A DNA stretch of 64,000 nucleotides from contig NZ_FOSQ01000006.1 of NCBI RefSeq assembly GCF_900114315.1, positions 248,001-312,000 on the forward strand, given 5' to 3'. Of this stretch, positions 52,159 through 60,483 are shown in pieces (positions within the stretch are counted from its first letter, which is position 1; each line of letters starts with the position of its first letter). The notes under the pieces were generated by a model. The model saw nothing but the letters and a program-made list of their open reading frames with translations. It did no database searches and was not told the DNA's origin. The DNA is from Falsiroseomonas stagni DSM 19981. GTDB lineage: Bacteria > Pseudomonadota > Alphaproteobacteria > Acetobacterales > Acetobacteraceae. Both the position numbers and the translations under genes were made by a program.

Positions 52159-52462
52159 CGCCCAGCGCCTTCGGCGCGCTCACCGCCGCGCGGGCACGGG
52201 CATAGTCCCGCAACAGCGCTGCGGTGGCGTCGTGGTGCGGCGTTCCGGGATCATGCTCCCCCTCGCGGATCGCCGCCGCCAGCGCGGCCAGATCCGGCAT
52301 CGGCGGCGCCACCGCATCCCGTTCCCGCAGCGCCAGCGCGATCGCGGCCGCCACCATCCGCGCCGCCATCGCCTTCTCCGGCGGCAGGGCCGGCAGAATC
52401 TCGAGCAACACCACGTCCCGCGCCGTGGCCAGCAGGTCGGCACCGTCGGGTTCTTCCAGCAT
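52148..52462 (-). CDS. DUF6285 domain-containing protein
   Basis: 104 residues, mostly helical: LLATARDVVLLEILPALPPEKAMAARMVAAAIALALRERDAV, then ATAALLRDYARARAAVSAP. This matches the small DUF6285 proteins that accompany APH-fold phosphotransferases and acyl-CoA dehydrogenases. It starts in the phosphotransferase stop (TGATG), and its own stop overlaps the convergent CaiB gene by 11 bases. Likely a partner or chaperone of the phosphotransferase; inference. Confidence 0.82.
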   Translation of the reverse strand: MLEEPDGADLLATARDVVLLEILPALPPEKAMAARMVAAAIALALRERDAVAPPMPDLAALAAAIREGEHDPGTPHHDATAALLRDYARARAAVSAPKALGATG

Positions 52463-53448
52463 CACAGCGCCTCCACCATCGCCAGCACGTCCAGTTCCAG
52501 CTCCGGCACGATATGCCCGGTCAGCGCCAGTTCCAGGCTGCGTTCCTGGCCCGAGAGATGCCGCGCCGCTTGGTCGGCCGCGATAACGGCCCAGCGGATC
52601 GTCGCCATCAACTCCCACCACGGCATCCGCGCGCGGTCGATGCGCGTGCCGGACTCGCTTTCATAGCCCGCATAGAAGGCCTCCCGCGCGCCGATGCCGC
52701 CGGCCTCCCGCGCCACCGCGCCGAAGCGCCAGCACTTCGCGCAGAACCAGCCGAGATCGGCGTGCGGGTCCCCCCAGGCCGCGAATTCCCAGTCCAGCAC
52801 GGCGGAAACGCGCGCGCCGTCCAGCATGATGTTGCCGGTGCGGAAATCATGGTGGCAGAGCACCGGCGGCACGGGTGCGGGCACCGCGCGTTCCAGCGCG
52901 CGCAGCCCCCATTCCAGCACCGGCCGCGGCGTCCCGGCCGCGTCCAGCCGTGCCCGCATGGCGTCGATCATCGCCCGCGCCGCATCGGCCGGCGGATCAC
53001 CGAGGAAACCGAGGTCCCCGCGCGGCGGCACGATCCGATGGATGCGGGCCAACTCGCGGCCTAGCGCCGCGACGATGGCATCACCCTGCGCGCCCGCCTG
53101 CTTCACCACGCGATGCGCGGCAGCGGTGCCCTCCACGCGCCCCATCACGAAGAAGGGCCGCCCGGTCACGCCCGTGTCATCGCAGAGGAACAGCGGTGCC
53201 GCCACCGTCACCCCCGCATCCCGCGCCGCGCATAGCAGCGCGTATTCCGCCGCGCGCGGCAGCGACACGGCCAGCACCGCCGGCGCATCCGTCCGCAGCA
53301 CCCAGCGCTTCGCGCCGTCGCGCATCGCCACGTCCAGCGCCCAGTTCTGCTGGATGGCGCCGCCCGACAGCCGCGTCAGCGCGGTGATGCGAAGCGTCTC
53401 GTCGCCCGTCTCGCGCGCCAGCCAGTCGCGCAGCCGCGCCTCATCCAT
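52462..53448 (-). CDS. APH-fold phosphotransferase (ACAD10/11-like)
   Basis: 328 residues with an aminoglycoside-phosphotransferase fold: ITALTRLSGGAIQQNWALDV, RWVLRTDAP (ATP-binding Arg/Lys), PFFVMGRVEG, and the catalytic loop VLCHHDFRTGNIMLDG with DWEFAAWGDPHADLGWF (Brenner-type HxD and DxD). Fusions of this domain to acyl-CoA dehydrogenase exist in eukaryotic ACAD10/11, which phosphorylate 4-hydroxy acids for catabolism. Here it overlaps the dehydrogenase gene by 8 bases, so the same job is likely. Confidence 0.88.
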   Translation of the reverse strand: MDEARLRDWLARETGDETLRITALTRLSGGAIQQNWALDVAMRDGAKRWVLRTDAPAVLAVSLPRAAEYALLCAARDAGVTVAAPLFLCDDTGVTGRPFFVMGRVEGTAAAHRVVKQAGAQGDAIVAALGRELARIHRIVPPRGDLGFLGDPPADAARAMIDAMRARLDAAGTPRPVLEWGLRALERAVPAPVPPVLCHHDFRTGNIMLDGARVSAVLDWEFAAWGDPHADLGWFCAKCWRFGAVAREAGGIGAREAFYAGYESESGTRIDRARMPWWELMATIRWAVIAADQAARHLSGQERSLELALTGHIVPELELDVLAMVEAL

Positions 53449-54646
53449 GCGCGCCCCACTCGAAGAAGTCGCGGCCCTCGCGCCGGAGAAAGTTCGCCAG
53501 CACCATGCGATGCACCTCGCTCGCGCCATCCACCAGGCGGGCCTGGCGGGCGTAGCGGTACATCCACTCCACCACCGTGTCCTTGGAATAGCCCCGCGCG
53601 CCCAGCAGTTGCAGCGACGTATCCACGGCCTTGTGCAGCGCATCCGCCACGACGATCTTCGCCATGGAGACCTCCTTCCGCGCGAAGCCGCCCTGGTCCA
53701 GCACCCAGGCCGCCTTCATCGTCAGCAGGCGCCCGATCTCCAGTTCCATCGCCGCCTGGCCCACCAGGCCCTGCACGCTTTCGCGGTCGATCAGCTTCTG
53801 GCCGAAGCTTTCCCGGGTCGCGATCCGCTCCATCGCGATCTCCAGCGCCCGCCGCCCCATGCCGAGCCAGCGCATGCAGTGGGTCAACCGCGCCGGGCCG
53901 AGGCGGATCTGCGTCACCTTCAGCCCGTCGCCCACGCCCATCAGCAGGTTCTCGTCGGGAATCTCCAGCCCGTCGAAGCGAAGTTCGCAATGCCCGCCAT
54001 GCTCCTCCGGCCCCATGATCGGGATGCGCCGCACGATCTCCCACCCCGGCTGGTCCGCATGGAACAGGAAGCAGGTAAGGCCACGACGCGCATCGTCCGA
54101 AGTGCGGGCAATGAGAAGAAAGTGCTTCGCCTCGCCGGCGCCGGTGATGTAGTGCTTGCGCCCCGTGATGCGCCAGCGGTCGTTGCCGACGCGCTCAGCC
54201 TTCGTATAGGTCAGGCCGGGGTCGCTGCCGCAGCCATCGGGTTCCGTCATCGCGAAGGCGGATTGCACGGCGCCATCGACGATGGGTTGCAGCCAGCGCG
54301 TCTTCTGCGCCTCCGTCGCCACCTTCTCCAGCACCTGCATGTTGCCGTCATCGGGCGCCGCGCTGTTGAAGACGACAGGGCCAAAGATGGATCGGTTCAT
54401 CTCCTCATAGCACGCGGCCATCCCGACCTTGCCCAGCCCCCCGCCGCCGCGGTGCTTCGGCATCTGCAGCGCCCACAGAGCCGCTTCCTTGGCCTCAGCC
54501 CGCATCCGCTTCAGCACATCAGGATGGATGTTCTCATGCTCGTCGTAATTGGCGCGATCCGCCTCCAGCGGGATCAGCCTCTCATCCACGAAGGTCCGCA
54601 CACGGCGCTGGACATCCACGATCTCGGGCGGCAGGCGAAAATCCAT
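53441..54646 (-). CDS. Acyl-CoA dehydrogenase
   Basis: 401 residues, FAD-dependent: N-terminal helical domain MDFRLPPEIVDVQRRVRTFVDE, the FAD/substrate motif FAMTEPDGCGSDPG, TGRKHYITGAGEAKHFLLIA, and the C-terminal domain with RESFGQKLIDRESVQGLVGQAAMELEIGR and DTSLQLLGARGYSKDTVVEWMYRYARQARLVDGASEVHRM. It is most like ACAD10/11-type or long-chain dehydrogenases. First of three coupled genes with the APH-fold kinase and DUF6285; an SDR precedes it by 14 bases. Confidence 0.95.
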   Translation of the reverse strand: MDFRLPPEIVDVQRRVRTFVDERLIPLEADRANYDEHENIHPDVLKRMRAEAKEAALWALQMPKHRGGGGLGKVGMAACYEEMNRSIFGPVVFNSAAPDDGNMQVLEKVATEAQKTRWLQPIVDGAVQSAFAMTEPDGCGSDPGLTYTKAERVGNDRWRITGRKHYITGAGEAKHFLLIARTSDDARRGLTCFLFHADQPGWEIVRRIPIMGPEEHGGHCELRFDGLEIPDENLLMGVGDGLKVTQIRLGPARLTHCMRWLGMGRRALEIAMERIATRESFGQKLIDRESVQGLVGQAAMELEIGRLLTMKAAWVLDQGGFARKEVSMAKIVVADALHKAVDTSLQLLGARGYSKDTVVEWMYRYARQARLVDGASEVHRMVLANFLRREGRDFFEWGAHG

Positions 54647-54660
54647 GCGGGGTGCTCCGG

Positions 54661-55443
54661 TCAGAGGGCGTTGACGGAATGGCCGCCATCGATTGTGACG
54701 ACGCTGCCCGTCATATGGGCGCCGGCCTCGCTGGCCAGCAGCAGCAGCGGGCCCGTCAGGTCATCGACGCTGCCGAGCCGGCGCTGCGGAATGCGCTTCA
54801 CCATGGCCTGGCCGGCCTCGCTGGCGAAGAAGTCGCGGTTGATCTCGGTGGCGATGTAGCCCGGCGCCAGCGCGTTCACGCGGATGCGGTGGCGGGCGAG
54901 TTCGACCGCCATCTGCCGCGTCAGATGCACCAGCGCGGCCTTGGCGGCGGAATAGCCGGCGACGCCGGGGATCACGCGCTCCGCCAGGATGGAGGCGATG
55001 TTGACGATGCTGCCGCCCTTGCCGGCCGCCACCATGCGCTTCGCCACCGCCTGCCCCACGGCGAAGGCACCGCGGAGATCGACCGCCATCACCTGGTCCC
55101 AATCCTCCGCCGTGTGGTCCAGGAAAGGGCGTGTGGTGGCGATGCCGGCATTGTTGACCAGGATGTCCACCGGCCCGAAGGCGCGTTCCGTGACGGCCAG
55201 GGCATCGGCGATGGAGGCATCCTCCGTCACGTCCAGCGCCACGGCACGCGCGCCCTCCCCCAGTTCCTCCGCCAGGCCGCGCAGCGCGGCCGGCTTGCGC
55301 GCCCCCATCGCCACGCAGGCGCCCGCGCCATGCAGCACGCGGGCGAAGTGGCGGCCGAGCACGCCGGAGGCGCCCGTGACCAGCGCGACGCGCCCGGCCA
55401 GGGAGAATGCCGCGAAGGGCGACCCAGCCCCGCTATCCGCCAT
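54661..55443 (-). CDS. SDR family oxidoreductase
   Basis: 260 residues, classical SDR: GRVALVTGASGVLGRHFARVLHGAGA, DVTEDASIADAL, NNAGIATTRPFL, catalytic Ser in IVNIASILAE, Tyr-x-x-x-Lys in GYSAAKAALVHL, and C-terminal GSVVTIDGGHS. Probably a 3-hydroxyacyl-CoA or 3-oxoacyl dehydrogenase. It heads the minus-strand SDR-dehydrogenase-kinase-DUF6285 unit; a beta-oxidation-like hydroxy acid route is the natural reading. Confidence 0.92.
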   Translation of the reverse strand: MADSGAGSPFAAFSLAGRVALVTGASGVLGRHFARVLHGAGACVAMGARKPAALRGLAEELGEGARAVALDVTEDASIADALAVTERAFGPVDILVNNAGIATTRPFLDHTAEDWDQVMAVDLRGAFAVGQAVAKRMVAAGKGGSIVNIASILAERVIPGVAGYSAAKAALVHLTRQMAVELARHRIRVNALAPGYIATEINRDFFASEAGQAMVKRIPQRRLGSVDDLTGPLLLLASEAGAHMTGSVVTIDGGHSVNAL

Positions 55444-55497: not shown

Positions 55498-55875
55498 TCA
55501 ACCGGGCAGCAGCCGCCGCAATTCCGCGAGGACCGCATCCATGTCGAGCGGCTTGGAAAACAGGCTCACCGGCGCCTCCCCGTCGCGCCGGAACGCCTCC
55601 TGCCCGCCGGCGGGCGCATAGCCCGTCATCACCACCACCGGCAGGTCCGGCCGGGTGGCGCGCAGCGCGCGGATCAGCCCCGCGCCATCCAGCCGCGGCA
55701 TGCGGAGGTCCGTCAGCAGCAGGTCCGGCGGCTGGCGCGCCGCGGCTTCCATCGCCGCCTGGCCATCCGGGGCCAGCACCACCTCATACCCCTGGGCGAG
55801 GAGTTCATCCTCGATCGCCATGGCGGCCAGCCCCTCATCCTCCGCCACGAGGATCCGGCGTGCGATGGAGGCCAT
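55498..55875 (-). CDS. Single-domain response regulator
   Basis: 125 residues, receiver only: acidic pair in LVAEDEG (~9-15), phospho-acceptor Asp56 in LLTDLRMPRLDG, Thr/Ser in VVMTGYAP, and the conserved Lys in SLFSKPLDM. No output domain. The ATG overlaps the stop of the ethylene-receptor-like kinase (TGATG), so it is its direct partner, as in phosphorelay or CheY-like systems. The stop is 54 bases from the SDR gene. Confidence 0.93.
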   Translation of the reverse strand: MASIARRILVAEDEGLAAMAIEDELLAQGYEVVLAPDGQAAMEAAARQPPDLLLTDLRMPRLDGAGLIRALRATRPDLPVVVMTGYAPAGGQEAFRRDGEAPVSLFSKPLDMDAVLAELRRLLPG

Positions 55876-57383
55876 CAGCAGGCGACCGGCAGGGGCGCCA
55901 GCCCATCGGCGGTAGGTTCGGCGATCGCCAGGGTCATGGTGAAGCAGGCGCCCCCCTCGGGCAGGTTCGCGGCCGCGATGCCACCGCCCATCCCGCGCGC
56001 CACCGCGGCGGCCAGCGACAGGCCGAGCCCGCTGCCATGGCCCGGTTCCTTGGTGGTGAAGAAGGGATCGAAGATCGACTGGCGCAGCGCCTCCGGCACG
56101 CCCGGGCCGTTGTCCCGCACCTCGATCACCGCTTGCCGCCCGGCCTGGCGCAGGGAGACGGCGATGCGGGCCGGCGCCGCGGCCCCGGCCGCGCGGGCTT
56201 CCAGCACGGCGTCGCGGGCATTGGACAGCAGGTGCAGCACCGCCTGTTCCAGCCCGGCGGGCGTGCCCGTCACGGCCAGGGCGGCCGACGGGGCGGAGAA
56301 GGACAGCGCGATGCCATCCGGCGCGTATTGCCCATCCGCGGTCCGCACCGCGGCACCGACCACGGCCGTGGCATCGAAGGTCTCCGCAGCCCCGGCATGC
56401 GCCGCCGCCAGGCCGCGGATGCGGCCGACCAGGTCGCCGGCCCGGCGCAGCTGGCCTTCCACCACGCCGATCGCCGCCATCAGCCGCGCGCCCTGTTCGG
56501 TCATCACCCCCGTCGCGGCATGGCGGGCATGGCGCAGCCACAGCAGGGCGGCGTTGAGCGGCTGGCTCGTTTCATGCGCCAGGCCCGCGCACATGGTGCC
56601 GATGGTCGCAAGCCGCGCCGATTCCACCAGCCCCGCCTGCAGGCGCCGCGTCTCCGTGATGTCGCGCGCGCTGCCGAGCAGCCGCTCCACCTCGCCTTCC
56701 GCATTGCGCATCGGCACCAGCACGGTCTGCCAGACGCGGTGGCCGCCTGGCGTCTCGGCCTCCATCTCGTAGTGCTGTACCGCCCCGGTTTCCACCGCGT
56801 GGCGCCAATGCGGCAGCACGCGTTCGGTGATGCCCGGGATGAAGCCGGCTTGCGCATCCCTTCCGACCACCTGCGCCGCCGGCAGGCCGAACAACCGTTC
56901 ATAGGCGGGGTTGACGGTTTCCGTCACGAAAGCCGCGCCCTGCCGCTCCACCCGCAGCACGAACAGCGCTTCCGCCAGGTTGGTGATGAAGGCCGCGGTC
57001 CGGGCCTCGCTGTCCAGCGCCCTCGCCTCGGCCGCGCGGCGCTCCTCGACCTCCCGCGCCAGGGCCGCCGGGCTCGGCAGCGCCAGCAGGCGGGGCAGCA
57101 GCGGCCAGAGCGTGATGGCGGTCGCGATGGAGACGGCCGCGCAGAAGGCCTTGATCAGCCCTTCCGCCAGCGGGTTCGGGTGGAACATCGTCCAGGCATG
57201 GGCCAGATGCGTGGTGCCGCAGGCGATGATGAACAGCGCGAACAGCCCGAAGATCCAGGGATAGGCCAGGTCCCGCCGCCGCAGCGCGAAGACGACCAGC
57301 GCCGCGGGGATGGAGAGATAGGCCAGCCCCGTCCCCACATCGGACAGCAGGTGCAGCCAGGCCAGGTCAGGGTCCACCAGCAT
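55875..57383 (-). CDS. Ethylene-receptor-like (ETR1-type) membrane histidine kinase with PAS domain
   Basis: 502 residues. The N-terminal three-helix membrane domain (residues ~12-100) matches plant ETR1: SDVGTGLAYLSIP, then ALFIIACGTTHLAHAWT. Asp15, Tyr22, Pro26, Cys55 and His59 fall at a constant offset of 10 from ETR1 Asp25, Tyr32, Pro36, Cys65 and His69, the ethylene and Cu(I) residues. A linker coiled coil, a PAS domain (~130-245), HisKA with His270 in CAGLAHETSQPL, and HATPase (SNARDAV, DNGPGVP, GHGSGLGLSL) follow. I use ATG 57383; a TTG at 57425 is possible. The receiver gene overlaps its stop. Confidence 0.9.
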   Translation of the reverse strand: MLVDPDLAWLHLLSDVGTGLAYLSIPAALVVFALRRRDLAYPWIFGLFALFIIACGTTHLAHAWTMFHPNPLAEGLIKAFCAAVSIATAITLWPLLPRLLALPSPAALAREVEERRAAEARALDSEARTAAFITNLAEALFVLRVERQGAAFVTETVNPAYERLFGLPAAQVVGRDAQAGFIPGITERVLPHWRHAVETGAVQHYEMEAETPGGHRVWQTVLVPMRNAEGEVERLLGSARDITETRRLQAGLVESARLATIGTMCAGLAHETSQPLNAALLWLRHARHAATGVMTEQGARLMAAIGVVEGQLRRAGDLVGRIRGLAAAHAGAAETFDATAVVGAAVRTADGQYAPDGIALSFSAPSAALAVTGTPAGLEQAVLHLLSNARDAVLEARAAGAAAPARIAVSLRQAGRQAVIEVRDNGPGVPEALRQSIFDPFFTTKEPGHGSGLGLSLAAAVARGMGGGIAAANLPEGGACFTMTLAIAEPTADGLAPLPVAC

Positions 57384-57566
57384 GCAGACGCCTGGCGGGG
57401 CGAGGTTCGGCGCGAAGCTGGGCAAGGGGCCGGATTCTCGTGCAGGAGGGGGAGAGTGGCGTGGTCGGCTTCCACCCCCTCCTTACCAGCAGCCCGCCGC
57501 CGACGCCCTCCGCCAAGGGGGCATCGCAACGCATCATCACGCGCGATTGAACGAATCGCGGCGACG

Positions 57567-57938
57567 TCAGCCCGGCATCAGCGACACATGCGCGGAAACG
57601 ACGCGCCAGCCCTCCGGCATCCGCACCCAGGTCTGGCTCTGCCGGCCGATCCGGCCATTGCGGGAGAAGGTCGTGTTGGCCGTCGCGAAATCGCGGCCAT
57701 GGGTGGTGATGACGGTCCGCACCAGCTCACGCTCCAGCCCGACCGAGGGGCGGGAGGCGCGGAAGGCCATGATCTCCTCATAGCCGTGCAGGATCTCCCC
57801 GGCGCCGTAGCGGATGGTGCGCGGGTCGTTCCAGAACAGCTCGTCCAGCACCGCGACGTCATTCGTCACCAGCGCGACCTCGTAGCGCTGGAAGGCGGCG
57901 GTGACCTCGGCCACCACCTCGGGGATATCGATGTCCAT
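57567..57938 (-). CDS. atzH: AtzH-like / HpxZ-type NTF2-fold protein
   Basis: 123 residues with an NTF2-like fold: [64 protein letters not shown] and [26 protein letters not shown]. The GxGE...HGxxEI pattern is typical of the DUF3225 group, known as HpxZ in oxalurate clusters and AtzH (1,3-dicarboxybiuret deaminase) in cyanuric acid clusters. Follows the AtzE-like amidase by 16 bases. The gene name is by neighbourhood. Confidence 0.85.
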
Positions 57939-57954: not shown

Positions 57955-59340
57955 TCACGAGGGGGGCGGGGTCGGGCAGCCGGCCAGGCCGGCATCGGCC
58001 AGGGCGGCGGCGGCGCGGAACAGCAGATCCTCCCGCCAGGGCGGGGCGACGAGTTGCAGCCCGACCGGCAGCGTGGCGCCGGCGCGGGCGGGGTCCGCCA
58101 GCGGCACGGCCATCGCCGGCAGGCCGATGGCGGAGAAGGGCTGGGTATAGACGCCGAGATGCGGCCGCGCCGCCACCGTCGCCCCATCCACCTCCATCAC
58201 CGCCGTGCCGATCGGCGGCGCGACGCAGGGCAGCAGCGGCGCCACCAGCACGTCGCACATGTCGAAGATGCGTGACGCCGCCCGTGCCCAGGCGGCGCGC
58301 ACGCGCTGGGCCTGGGTGATCCAATGCGCGGGCAGCAGGGCGCCCGCCAGGAAACGGTCGCGCGTCAGCGGATCGAAGTCATCGGCGCGACGACGCAGCG
58401 ACGGCAGGTGCAGGTTCGCCCCCTCCGCCAGGGTGATCAGCATCGCCGCGGCCCGCCCCTCCGCCACCAGATCGGGCGCGATGCGGGTGGTGGCGCCGAG
58501 CACCGCCGCCGCCAGCCCGACGGGCGCCAGGGCCTCGGCGTGGCCACCCCGCTCGAAATAGCCGGCGGCGATGCCGAAGCGGATGCCCCCCAGCCCCCGC
58601 AGGCCGCTCACCGGCTCGATCGCCCTCGGCGCCTGGGCGGGGTCCGCGGGGTCCTCCCCCTGCATGGCGTCATGGACCAGCGCCAGGTCATCGAGGCTGC
58701 GCGCGAAGGGGCCGACATGGTCGAAGCTGCCGGCGAACAGATGGGCGCCGCGGCGCGACAGCCGCCCATAGGTCGGCTTCAGCCCCCAGATGCCGCAGAG
58801 CCCCGCCGGCACGCGGATGGACCCGTTGGTGTCGCTGCCGATGCCGATCGGTGTGAGCCCCGCCGCGACCGCCGCCGCCGACCCGCCGGAGGACCCGCCG
58901 GCGATGCGCGCGGGATCATGCGGGTTGCGCGTGGGCCCCGCATGGGCGTTTTCCGTGGAGAAGCCGAAGGCGAATTCATCCATGTTGGTGGCGCCGATCA
59001 CCACCGCCCCGGCCGCGCGCAGACGCTGCACGGCGAAGGCATCCTGCATTGCCGGCGCCGCATCGCGCCGGATCTTCGATCCCGCGAGCGTCGGCAGTCC
59101 TTCCAGGTCGAACAGGTTCTTCACGGCCAGCGGCACGCCGGCCAGCGGGCCGGGATCGCGGCCCGCCGCGATGGCGGCATCCACCGCCGCGGCCTCCGCC
59201 CGCGCACGGTCGGCGGTGACGGCGGTGAAGCAGGTCAGCGCGCCATCCCGCGCGGCGATATCGGCCAGCGTGGCCTCCACCACCGCCACCGCCGTCGTCG
59301 TGCCGGCGCGGATGGCCGCGGCGGTGCGGGCGGCGTTCAT
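57955..59340 (-). CDS. atzE: AtzE family amidohydrolase (amidase signature)
   Basis: 461 residues. The Ser-cisSer-Lys triad is visible: Lys in [14 protein letters not shown], the signature [14 protein letters not shown], and the nucleophile Ser in [17 protein letters not shown]. AtzE is the catalytic subunit of 1-carboxybiuret hydrolase in cyanuric acid degradation; in other clusters a homologue acts on oxalurate or related ureido acids. It overlaps AtzG by ATGA and precedes AtzH, the full AtzG-E-H order. Upstream atzD or atzF genes are not in this window, so the true substrate is open. Confidence 0.9.
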
Positions 59341-59519
59341 GCCCGGAACACCGGGGCGGCCTCCTCCGCCTCGGTCAGGGGCACACGCTCGATCAGCGCC
59401 GCCGCCGCGACCGCGACCTTCAGCCCTGCGATCACGCCCGGCATCTGGTGCGGCGCGATGGGCAGGCCAAGGAGGGCGGCGGTGGCACGGGCGTGGGCCT
59501 CAAGGTCTTCGTCGGTCAT
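59337..59519 (-). CDS. atzG: AtzG-like small subunit (DUF4089)
   Basis: 60 residues: MTDEDLEAHARATAALLGLPIA, then MPGVIAGLKVAVAAAALIERVPL. This is the DUF4089 pattern of AtzG, a small helical subunit that stabilises the AtzE amidase as an A2B2 complex. Starts at ATG 59519; an upstream extension of the frame is rejected because it crosses the divergent promoter. ATGA overlap with atzE. Confidence 0.88.
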   Translation of the reverse strand: MTDEDLEAHARATAALLGLPIAPHQMPGVIAGLKVAVAAAALIERVPLTEAEEAAPVFRA

Positions 59520-59567
59520 GGGCGCCTTCCAGGCAAGGTCCGTGCCGCCATCAAGGCGGCGTGATGC

Positions 59568-59581
59568 TTGATGCCGATCAA
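59568..59581. promoter_or_regulatory. FNR/FixK-type operator
   Basis: TTGATGCCGATCAA is a perfect TTGAT-N4-ATCAA palindrome, the consensus for FNR/FixK/Anr regulators. It lies 56 bases before the universal stress protein start and 48 bases before the divergent atzG start, so it may act on either. Universal stress genes are common FNR/Anr targets. Confidence 0.75.
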
Positions 59582-59637
59582 GGCCCGAAGACGCGCCGGC
59601 GCGCAACCTGCCCCGCCAATGGGCAAGGAGCCGCGAC

Positions 59638-60483
59638 ATGGCCTTCAAGGACCTGCTGGTGCATCTGGACGGCACCGATCACGCCATGGCGCGGCTCGAC
59701 TACGCCGCGGGGCTGGCGGCGCGGCACGGGGCGCATCTGGTCGGGCTGCATGCGGTGGAGGGCGGGCTGCCCCTCGGCCTGACCTCCGACATGGGCGGCG
59801 CTTCGCTCGGCCTGCTGCTGGCGCAGTTGCGGAAGACGGCGGAGGCCGACGCCGCGCGCATGCGCGCCGCCTTCGAGGACCGCATCCGCCGCGACGGGTT
59901 GCAGGGCGAATGGCGCGAGGCGATGGACATGCCACCGGAGGCCGTGGCGCTGCACACGCGCTACGCGGACCTCGCCGTGCTCGGCCAGCCGGAGCCCGGC
60001 AACGCCCAGGCCACGATCAATGAGATGATCCTGGAAGCCGTGCTGTTCACCGCGGGCCGGCCCGTGCTGATGCTGCCCTATGCGGGGTCGTTCACACCCA
60101 CGCCGCAGACCGTGCTGGTGGCCTGGAATGCCAGCAAGGAAGCCGCCCGCGCGGTGCATGATGCCCTGCCCCTGCTGCAGGCCGCCGACCAGGTGCGCGT
60201 GCTGGCGGTGAATCCCCGCCAGGGCATCGGTGGCCATGGCGATGTGCCCGCCGCCGACATCGCCCTGCACCTGGCCCGCCATGGCGTCGCCGCCACGGCG
60301 CAGCACACGGTCGCGAACGAGATCCGCGAATCCGACGTGCTGCTGAACAGCGCCACCGATCTGGGGGCAGGGTTGCTGGTGATGGGCGCCTATGGCCATT
60401 CCCGGCTGCGGGAAATGGTGCTGGGCGGCGTCACACGCGGCATCCTCGCCCGCATGACGCTGCCTGTCCTACTCGCGCATTAA
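59638..60483 (+). CDS. Universal stress protein with two UspA domains
   Basis: 281 residues: a first UspA domain starting MAFKDLLVHLDGTDHAMARL, with an ATP-binding-like PVLMLPYAG end, and a second starting TVLVAWNASKEAARAVHDAL, with the motif GLLVMGAYGHSRLREMVLGGVTR (G-2x-G-9x-G-type) and TLPVLLAH. GCAAGGAG precedes the ATG. A perfect FNR/FixK box lies upstream, suggesting induction at low oxygen. Its stop TAA overlaps the opposite-strand stop of the DUF6282 gene. Confidence 0.92.
   Translation: MAFKDLLVHLDGTDHAMARLDYAAGLAARHGAHLVGLHAVEGGLPLGLTSDMGGASLGLLLAQLRKTAEADAARMRAAFEDRIRRDGLQGEWREAMDMPPEAVALHTRYADLAVLGQPEPGNAQATINEMILEAVLFTAGRPVLMLPYAGSFTPTPQTVLVAWNASKEAARAVHDALPLLQAADQVRVLAVNPRQGIGGHGDVPAADIALHLARHGVAATAQHTVANEIRESDVLLNSATDLGAGLLVMGAYGHSRLREMVLGGVTRGILARMTLPVLLAH

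Follow-up and report, generated by a model that had tools for sequence, protein, structure and literature searches.

A 64,000-nucleotide stretch of the genome of Falsiroseomonas stagni DSM 19981 (contig NZ_FOSQ01000006.1, positions 248,001 to 312,000, referred to here as the window) contains two overlapping genes, encoding an ETR1-type sensor histidine kinase and a stand-alone receiver, that very probably form an ethylene receptor operon of the type described for AzoEtr1 of Azospirillum brasilense Sp7. Ethylene sensing by the window protein, proposed in an initial annotation that was made from the DNA letters alone, is likely in view of its curated domain match, the predicted placement of its putative copper ligands in the second membrane helix and near full-length homology to a pair whose sensor binds ethylene. 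The initial annotation named Azospirillum among bacteria with such sensors; it missed that the arrangement of kinase and stand-alone receiver had already been published for that organism (PMC11819568). All window coordinates given below are on the minus strand.

The kinase, its binding site and its receiver

The kinase gene lies at 55875..57425 and encodes 516 amino acids if translated from a TTG at 57425, or 502 from an ATG at 57383; residue numbers here follow the ATG. The ethylene-binding domain, ETR1_N (PF25487), occupies residues 7–102 (57078..57365) and was recovered by a profile hidden Markov model comparison against Pfam with 118.5 bits against a cut-off of 27 (E 1.6e-34), bearing out the ETR1-type domain of the initial annotation. 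It is followed by a PAS domain (residues 153–247, 56643..56927; PAS_4, 64.7 bits), by a HETSQP motif and by a HATPase_c domain with N, G1, F and G2 motifs (residues 375–486, 55926..56261; 75.1 bits). His270, within HETSQP (56574..56576), is the presumed phospho-acceptor because of this motif and the FixL-type matches of the kinase part; HisKA gave no Pfam match in the kinase at E ≤ 1. The receiver gene (55498..55875, 125 amino acids) is joined to that of the kinase through TGATG at 55873..55877, where the TGA of the kinase and the ATG of the receiver overlap by 1 nucleotide. Response_reg (66.4 bits) is the sole Pfam family above cut-off in the receiver, and no output domain was found, so the initial description of a PAS-containing kinase followed by a receiver that lacks a DNA-binding part and is translated from an overlapping start stands. 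The receiver keeps E12/D13, Asp56 (the presumed phospho-acceptor), T84 and K108, residues whose roles, like those of the kinase motifs, are general knowledge.

Translation of 55875–57383 reproduces the reading of residues 14–26 as SDVGTGLAYLSIP and of residues 49–65 as ALFIIACGTTHLAHAWT. Alignment places D15, Y22, I25, P26, I52, C55 and H59 opposite D25, Y32, I35, P36, I62, C65 and H69 of AtETR1, a constant offset of 10 at seven of seven positions, which upholds the correspondence already drawn for Asp25, Tyr32, Pro36, Cys65 and His69 at 15, 22, 26, 55 and 59. The full list of seven, and in particular Ile35 and Ile62 of AtETR1, is what we take to be the binding set. In the excerpted text of PMC11819568 and PMC6682694, seven residues are given as required for ethylene binding, and in that of PMC12643061 the Cu(I) site of ETR1 is formed by Asp25, Cys65 and His69. 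The corresponding residues in the window kinase are Asp15 (57339..57341), a putative part of the Cu(I) site, and the putative Cu(I) ligands Cys55 (57219..57221) and His59 (57207..57209).

An AlphaFold2 model of kinase residues 1–124, built with 7 sequences (mean predicted local distance difference test score 81.1, predicted template modelling score 0.58), has helices at 5–35, 42–65, 71–100 and 105–123. Asp15, Tyr22 and Pro26 fall in helix 1, Cys55 and His59 in helix 2 and Lys78 in helix 3, so that the predicted fold has three membrane helices with the Cys/His pair in the second, where the initial annotation required it. A helix-3 lysine is described, in the same excerpt of PMC11819568, at Lys91 of AtETR1 and Lys98 of AzoEtr1, and Lys78 shares an alignment column with the latter. 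The view that all this is accidental similarity, such as any three-helix anchor might show, draws on the simple composition of membrane helices and nothing more; it was rejected, and is barely credible, given the E value to a curated family, the agreement at all seven positions and the near full-length homology to AzoEtr1.

In one respect the initial annotation probably needs amending: it started the kinase at the ATG at 57383, and the true start is probably the TTG at 57425, 14 codons 5′ of it. The three closest relatives (loci L001, L002 and L003) all have the in-frame TTG, and at L002 the ATG is missing. The 502-residue numbering is therefore probably 14 residues short. The 14-codon extension terminates in APPGVC. 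A Cys at the beginning of the domain or shortly ahead of it is found in 75 of the 76 full-length domain rows of the survey described below that have the complete set of seven residues, and in 25 of the other 37. In AtETR1, N-terminal cysteines make the disulphide link between subunits. Since the AtETR1 dimer is disulphide-linked, as the title of a cited paper has it, the Cys in the extension of the window kinase may, by analogy, matter.

The same cysteine enters into an alternative account, in which the input of the membrane domain is copper or redox state and Cu(I) occupancy, not ethylene, is the signal. The retained Asp/Cys/His site would serve such a function, the Cys before the domain goes with an intact site in nearly every row, and a 2025 nuclear magnetic resonance study reports, in the part of its text available, that the ETR1 dimer is stabilised and rigidified by Cu(I). 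Tyr22, Ile25, Pro26 and Ile52 are kept as well, however, and these belong to the seven ethylene positions and are not named metal ligands; AzoEtr1, from the same clade, binds ethylene. We regard copper or redox sensing as unlikely.

If the pair is an ethylene receptor, we infer from homology that the protein would dimerise, that its three-helix membrane domain would bind Cu(I) by Cys55 and His59, Asp15 assisting, and that this copper would bind ethylene. The resulting change would be relayed via the PAS linker to the FixL-like kinase, which would autophosphorylate on His270 and pass the phosphate to Asp56 of the receiver. An analogy with AtETR1, together with indirect evidence from Synechocystis, suggests that ethylene would lower kinase activity. 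As the receiver has no output domain, its effect would have to come from contact with another protein or from onward transfer of the phosphate.

Distribution in the family and changes at the binding site

ETR1_N was found in 62 of 299 sampled genomes of the family Acetobacteraceae and in 28 of 385 sampled genomes of the class (the window genome being counted in both), with a single match in the window's own genome. The nearest named loci are from Falsiroseomonas and Roseomonas. From 84 places listed in the family, 82 places in 80 loci were taken, a weak match in genome G116 and the window itself being left aside; L111 and L144 gave no match to the profile built in this analysis. Excluding matches shorter than 86 residues, as was also done for the Cys count above, 77 full-length domain matches remain in 76 of the 80 loci, and 47 of them have all seven residues. 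In both counts L005 and L047, which are the same contig stretch, and the near-identical L094 and L095 were left unmerged. In ten more of the 77 the one departure is Asn in place of the first Asp (L054, L062, L073, L079, L080, L082, L075, L090, L101 and L108), and nine of these ten are kinases of 644–776 amino acids.

A BLAST ranking by kinase core against the window, limited to proteins of more than 300 amino acids, separates 35 proteins including AzoEtr1, with at least 154 bits, from the next at 91.7. In a tree of the core the 35 rows are on one branch (support 100/100), and the window groups with L002, L001 and L003 (100/99); AzoEtr1 and L120 are at the clade base with weak support (82/43), and long branches in the tree were flagged. 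A receiver-like open reading frame, recognised by the motif [AV]EDE close to its beginning and a position from −60 to +150 nucleotides from the kinase stop, adjoins the kinase in 33 of the 35. L055 has no adjoining receiver, and L120, with just 132 bases after the kinase, cannot be judged.

Setting aside the broken gene of L106, nine of 34 clade members carry substitutions among the seven residues of the binding site; their kinases and receivers remain conserved. The seven positions read DCVSLCH in L107, DCVLLLH in L115, ESILLDH in L113 and L114, ESLLLTH in L116, DFIPISH in L102, DCLPVAQ in L104, DYVPAAH in L103 and, with one position changed, DYILICH in L089. At minimum, 6 changes are needed on the core tree when the outgroup L079, with Asn for Asp, is scored as intact. 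L107 and L115 fall within the window's own 11-row subclade and genus group. L115 has the gene order of the window, in which the receiver is followed by genes for a short-chain dehydrogenase/reductase (SDR), an acyl-CoA dehydrogenase (ACAD) and an APH-fold kinase; in L107 the receiver is followed by a gap of ~2.8 kb and then by SDR and ACAD, up to the edge of the stretch examined. Identities of L107 and L115 to the window are 42.6% and 34.4% for the sensor, 58.8% and 60.0% for the core and 79.5% and 76.2% for the receiver, and those of the five intact subclade members beyond the nearest four are 65–79%, 57–65% and 73–83%.

The ratio of nonsynonymous to synonymous substitution rates (dN/dS, by Nei-Gojobori) was compared as well. 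For sensor versus core it is 0.72 versus 0.32 (L115–L098), 0.52 versus 0.36 (L107–L098), 0.54 versus 0.20 (L102–L104) and 0.39–0.52 versus 0.12–0.19 (among L113, L114 and L116), pairs that take in all changed members other than L103 and L089. In intact pairs the sensor value is 0.11–0.34, and it clearly exceeds that of the core in L042–L064 (0.28 versus 0.13) and window–L002 (0.18 versus 0.11). A single ETR1_N match was found in each of the L107 and L115 genomes, and hence no further, intact copy. The simplest reading of these sequences is that ethylene binding was lost repeatedly with the kinase-receiver output retained, which makes the changed-site members candidates for natural ethylene-blind receptors. 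Metal binding in L107 is possible, since Asp, Cys and His are still there.

The changed members also lend themselves to the idea that sensing is done chiefly by the PAS domain, with the ETR1-like domain serving for the most part as a membrane anchor: binding residues are altered in 9 of 34 while kinase and receiver remain, and the membrane-domain dN/dS is raised in the changed-site pairs tested. Between the window and L001–L003, however, identity in the membrane domain is no lower than in the kinase core (91.7–92.7% versus 81.5–91.4%), and none of the seven residues has changed. The dN/dS values of this comparison are mixed, the sensor (0.11–0.19) being below the core against L001 and L003 and above it against L002. 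On balance we hold a dominant PAS input to be quite improbable.

Ethylene sensing, the reading we prefer, has to be set against several points that tell the other way. A phmmer search of solved structures with the domain alone returned only a DnaA chain (E 1.2), and in the comparison of the window with L002 the sensor has a higher dN/dS than the core. Ligand and copper binding by the window protein are themselves predictions, and for a lowering of kinase activity by ethylene the excerpted text of PMC11819568 has indirect evidence from Synechocystis and, for Azospirillum, no more than a prediction. Lastly, the binding residues are changed in species that share the window's gene neighbourhood, and the operon can therefore persist without ethylene input.

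Gene neighbourhood and other settings of the domain

Upstream of the kinase gene, and reported for context only, are genes for an AtzH-like protein (57567–57935), an AtzE-like amidase (57955–59340) and an AtzG-like protein (59337–59651). Downstream, likewise as context, are the SDR (54661–55443), ACAD (53441–54646) and APH-fold kinase (52462–53448) genes, which begin 54 nucleotides after the receiver and occur in the same succession in L001–L004, L086, L092 and L115. They are candidates for co-transcription with the receptor pair, a putative link that falls short of making them receiver targets. The juxtaposition of ACAD and APH-fold kinase genes (52462–54646), which several relatives also have downstream of their receptor genes, is reminiscent of ACAD10/11 of eukaryotes, in which the two are fused. 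A scan for sigma-70 promoters and terminators found none, a result of little weight in DNA this rich in GC, and no RpoN site of the kind proposed for AzoEtr1 was seen at the window locus by eye. A gene for 1-aminocyclopropane-1-carboxylate deaminase (TIGR01274), a sign of ethylene-related metabolism, was not found in the window's own genome (0 of 1); the same model gave below-cut-off matches in 6 of 14 control genomes. A literature search on Roseomonas and ethylene showed, among the papers listed and judged by title, none on an ethylene receptor, and for K. xylinus the excerpted text of PMC4686702 states that no ethylene receptor had been reported.

Elsewhere the domain occurs in other arrangements. 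At L123, L127, L142 and L108 short ETR1_N proteins (117–144 amino acids) are encoded by genes that overlap a separate, larger open reading frame by 1–8 nucleotides; these larger frames open with a membrane-like segment, judged by eye, and the loci are possible split receptors. ETR1_N genes are also found on two plasmids of Rhodovastum atsumiense (L148, 4944–7022; L149, 5001–7772), where transposase genes lie close by, and also on a Novosphingobium plasmid typed as conjugative (L151, 4935–6089). At L149 the annotated gene start falls inside the ETR1_N domain.

Stand-alone ETR1_N proteins without a kinase are encoded on three viral contigs of IMG/VR, a lower bound because the viral scans used only a few short peptide patterns. 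The first (IMGVR_UViG_3300037853_000083; L156, 5001–5480, equal to L105, 2533–3015, minus strand, the two being the same DNA at 118 of 118 sampled 50-mers) encodes a protein of 160 amino acids in which none of the seven residues is changed; 4 nucleotides of its gene are shared with the gene of a GH108 endolysin (Pfam 76.5 bits; PHROG lysis 4.7e-47). The second (IMGVR_UViG_3300005985_000005; L158, 3198–3569) encodes 123 amino acids (55.6 bits) with Asp and Pro replaced and Cys and His kept. Its gene overlaps a membrane/coiled-coil reading frame with weak PHROG matches, two of them to Rz-like spanins (0.0025 and 0.007). An N-acetylmuramidase gene (158.2 bits) lies 1.9 kb upstream of the domain gene, and a small reading frame between the two looks membrane-like by eye. 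The third (IMGVR_UViG_3300025916_000243; L155, 10001–10354, equal to L153) encodes 118 amino acids (51.4 bits) with six of the seven residues, on a contig that also carries genes for an SU10-type portal (44.7 bits) and for a helicase of DnaB type. A lysis setting is weakly supported in this case, as the nearest lysin candidate, ~0.8 kb away, is a sub-threshold NLPC_P60 match (18 bits against a cut-off of 23). On a fourth viral contig (L152) ETR1_N is part of an HWE kinase. A tblastn search of 50,697 phage records with the domains of the window, L153 and L105 (the L158 domain was not among the queries) gave no match, and a literature search on ethylene receptors or ethylene binding and bacteriophages listed no phage report, the papers in that list being, by title, all on plants.

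These cases invite the speculation, which we put forward as doubtful, that the ETR1 membrane fold is a module that can be uncoupled and serve purposes other than ethylene sensing. Sister species would be naturally ethylene-blind with a fixed or re-assigned output, and phages would have acquired the fold by itself, in one case with the seven residues unaltered, and placed it beside lysis genes, where it could be holin-like with an opening responsive to copper or ethylene.

Relation to known receptors

The kinase part of the window protein matches FixL-derived chains (e.g. 8a3u, 9.9e-27). In contrast to FixL, the window kinase has a membrane ethylene domain as its input, and its partner receiver has no DNA-binding part; a FixL/FixJ pair was rejected, with NCBIfam FixL reaching 90.5 bits against a cut-off of 850 and the receiver matching Response_reg only. 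With AtETR1 the window kinase shares the seven binding positions at an offset of 10, but its body is that of a bacterial PAS-histidine kinase, whereas plant signalling is, in the excerpt of PMC11819568, mostly independent of kinase activity and proceeds via a Ser/Thr kinase. SynEtr1 of Synechocystis, by its published description, has the ethylene-binding domain and two-component logic in common with the window; unlike the window protein it doubles as a photoreceptor with PAS, PAC and GAF parts.

AzoEtr1 is the closest known counterpart. As described in the available text of PMC11819568, it is a 525-residue protein with an ethylene-binding domain, a PAS domain and a histidine kinase, for which ethylene binding was measured; residues 1–130, produced in Pichia as a fusion to GST, bind ethylene, and binding is lost in disruptants. 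Directly downstream, with a stop/start overlap, is the gene for AzoRR-etr1, a 135-residue receiver without an output motif. We found open reading frames of these lengths at the Sp7 locus (L147). The window pair shows the same domain order, gene order, overlapping stand-alone receiver gene and all seven residues, with 42.3% identity between the kinases over 503 aligned positions (525 versus 516 or 502 amino acids) and 46% between the receivers over 117 positions (135 versus 125 amino acids). The overlap is 1 nucleotide in the window versus 8 in the AzoEtr1 pair, and the neighbourhoods differ, none of eight flanking window genes tested being detected in 10,258 bases of L147 at E 1e-15.

The same paper, in that text, describes the pathway from the AzoEtr1 receiver to a response as unknown and says as much of the output of such stand-alone receivers (PMC11819568). 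Here the matched natural variants, with intact and changed sites in one neighbourhood, could provide a test of that output. By its sequence the window pair is a member of the already described AzoEtr1 kind, because the same two-gene arrangement has been described in Azospirillum and its sensor shown to bind ethylene. It extends a published arrangement and is not a new one, and the bacterial ethylene receptor operon now reaches into the Roseomonas/Falsiroseomonas group.
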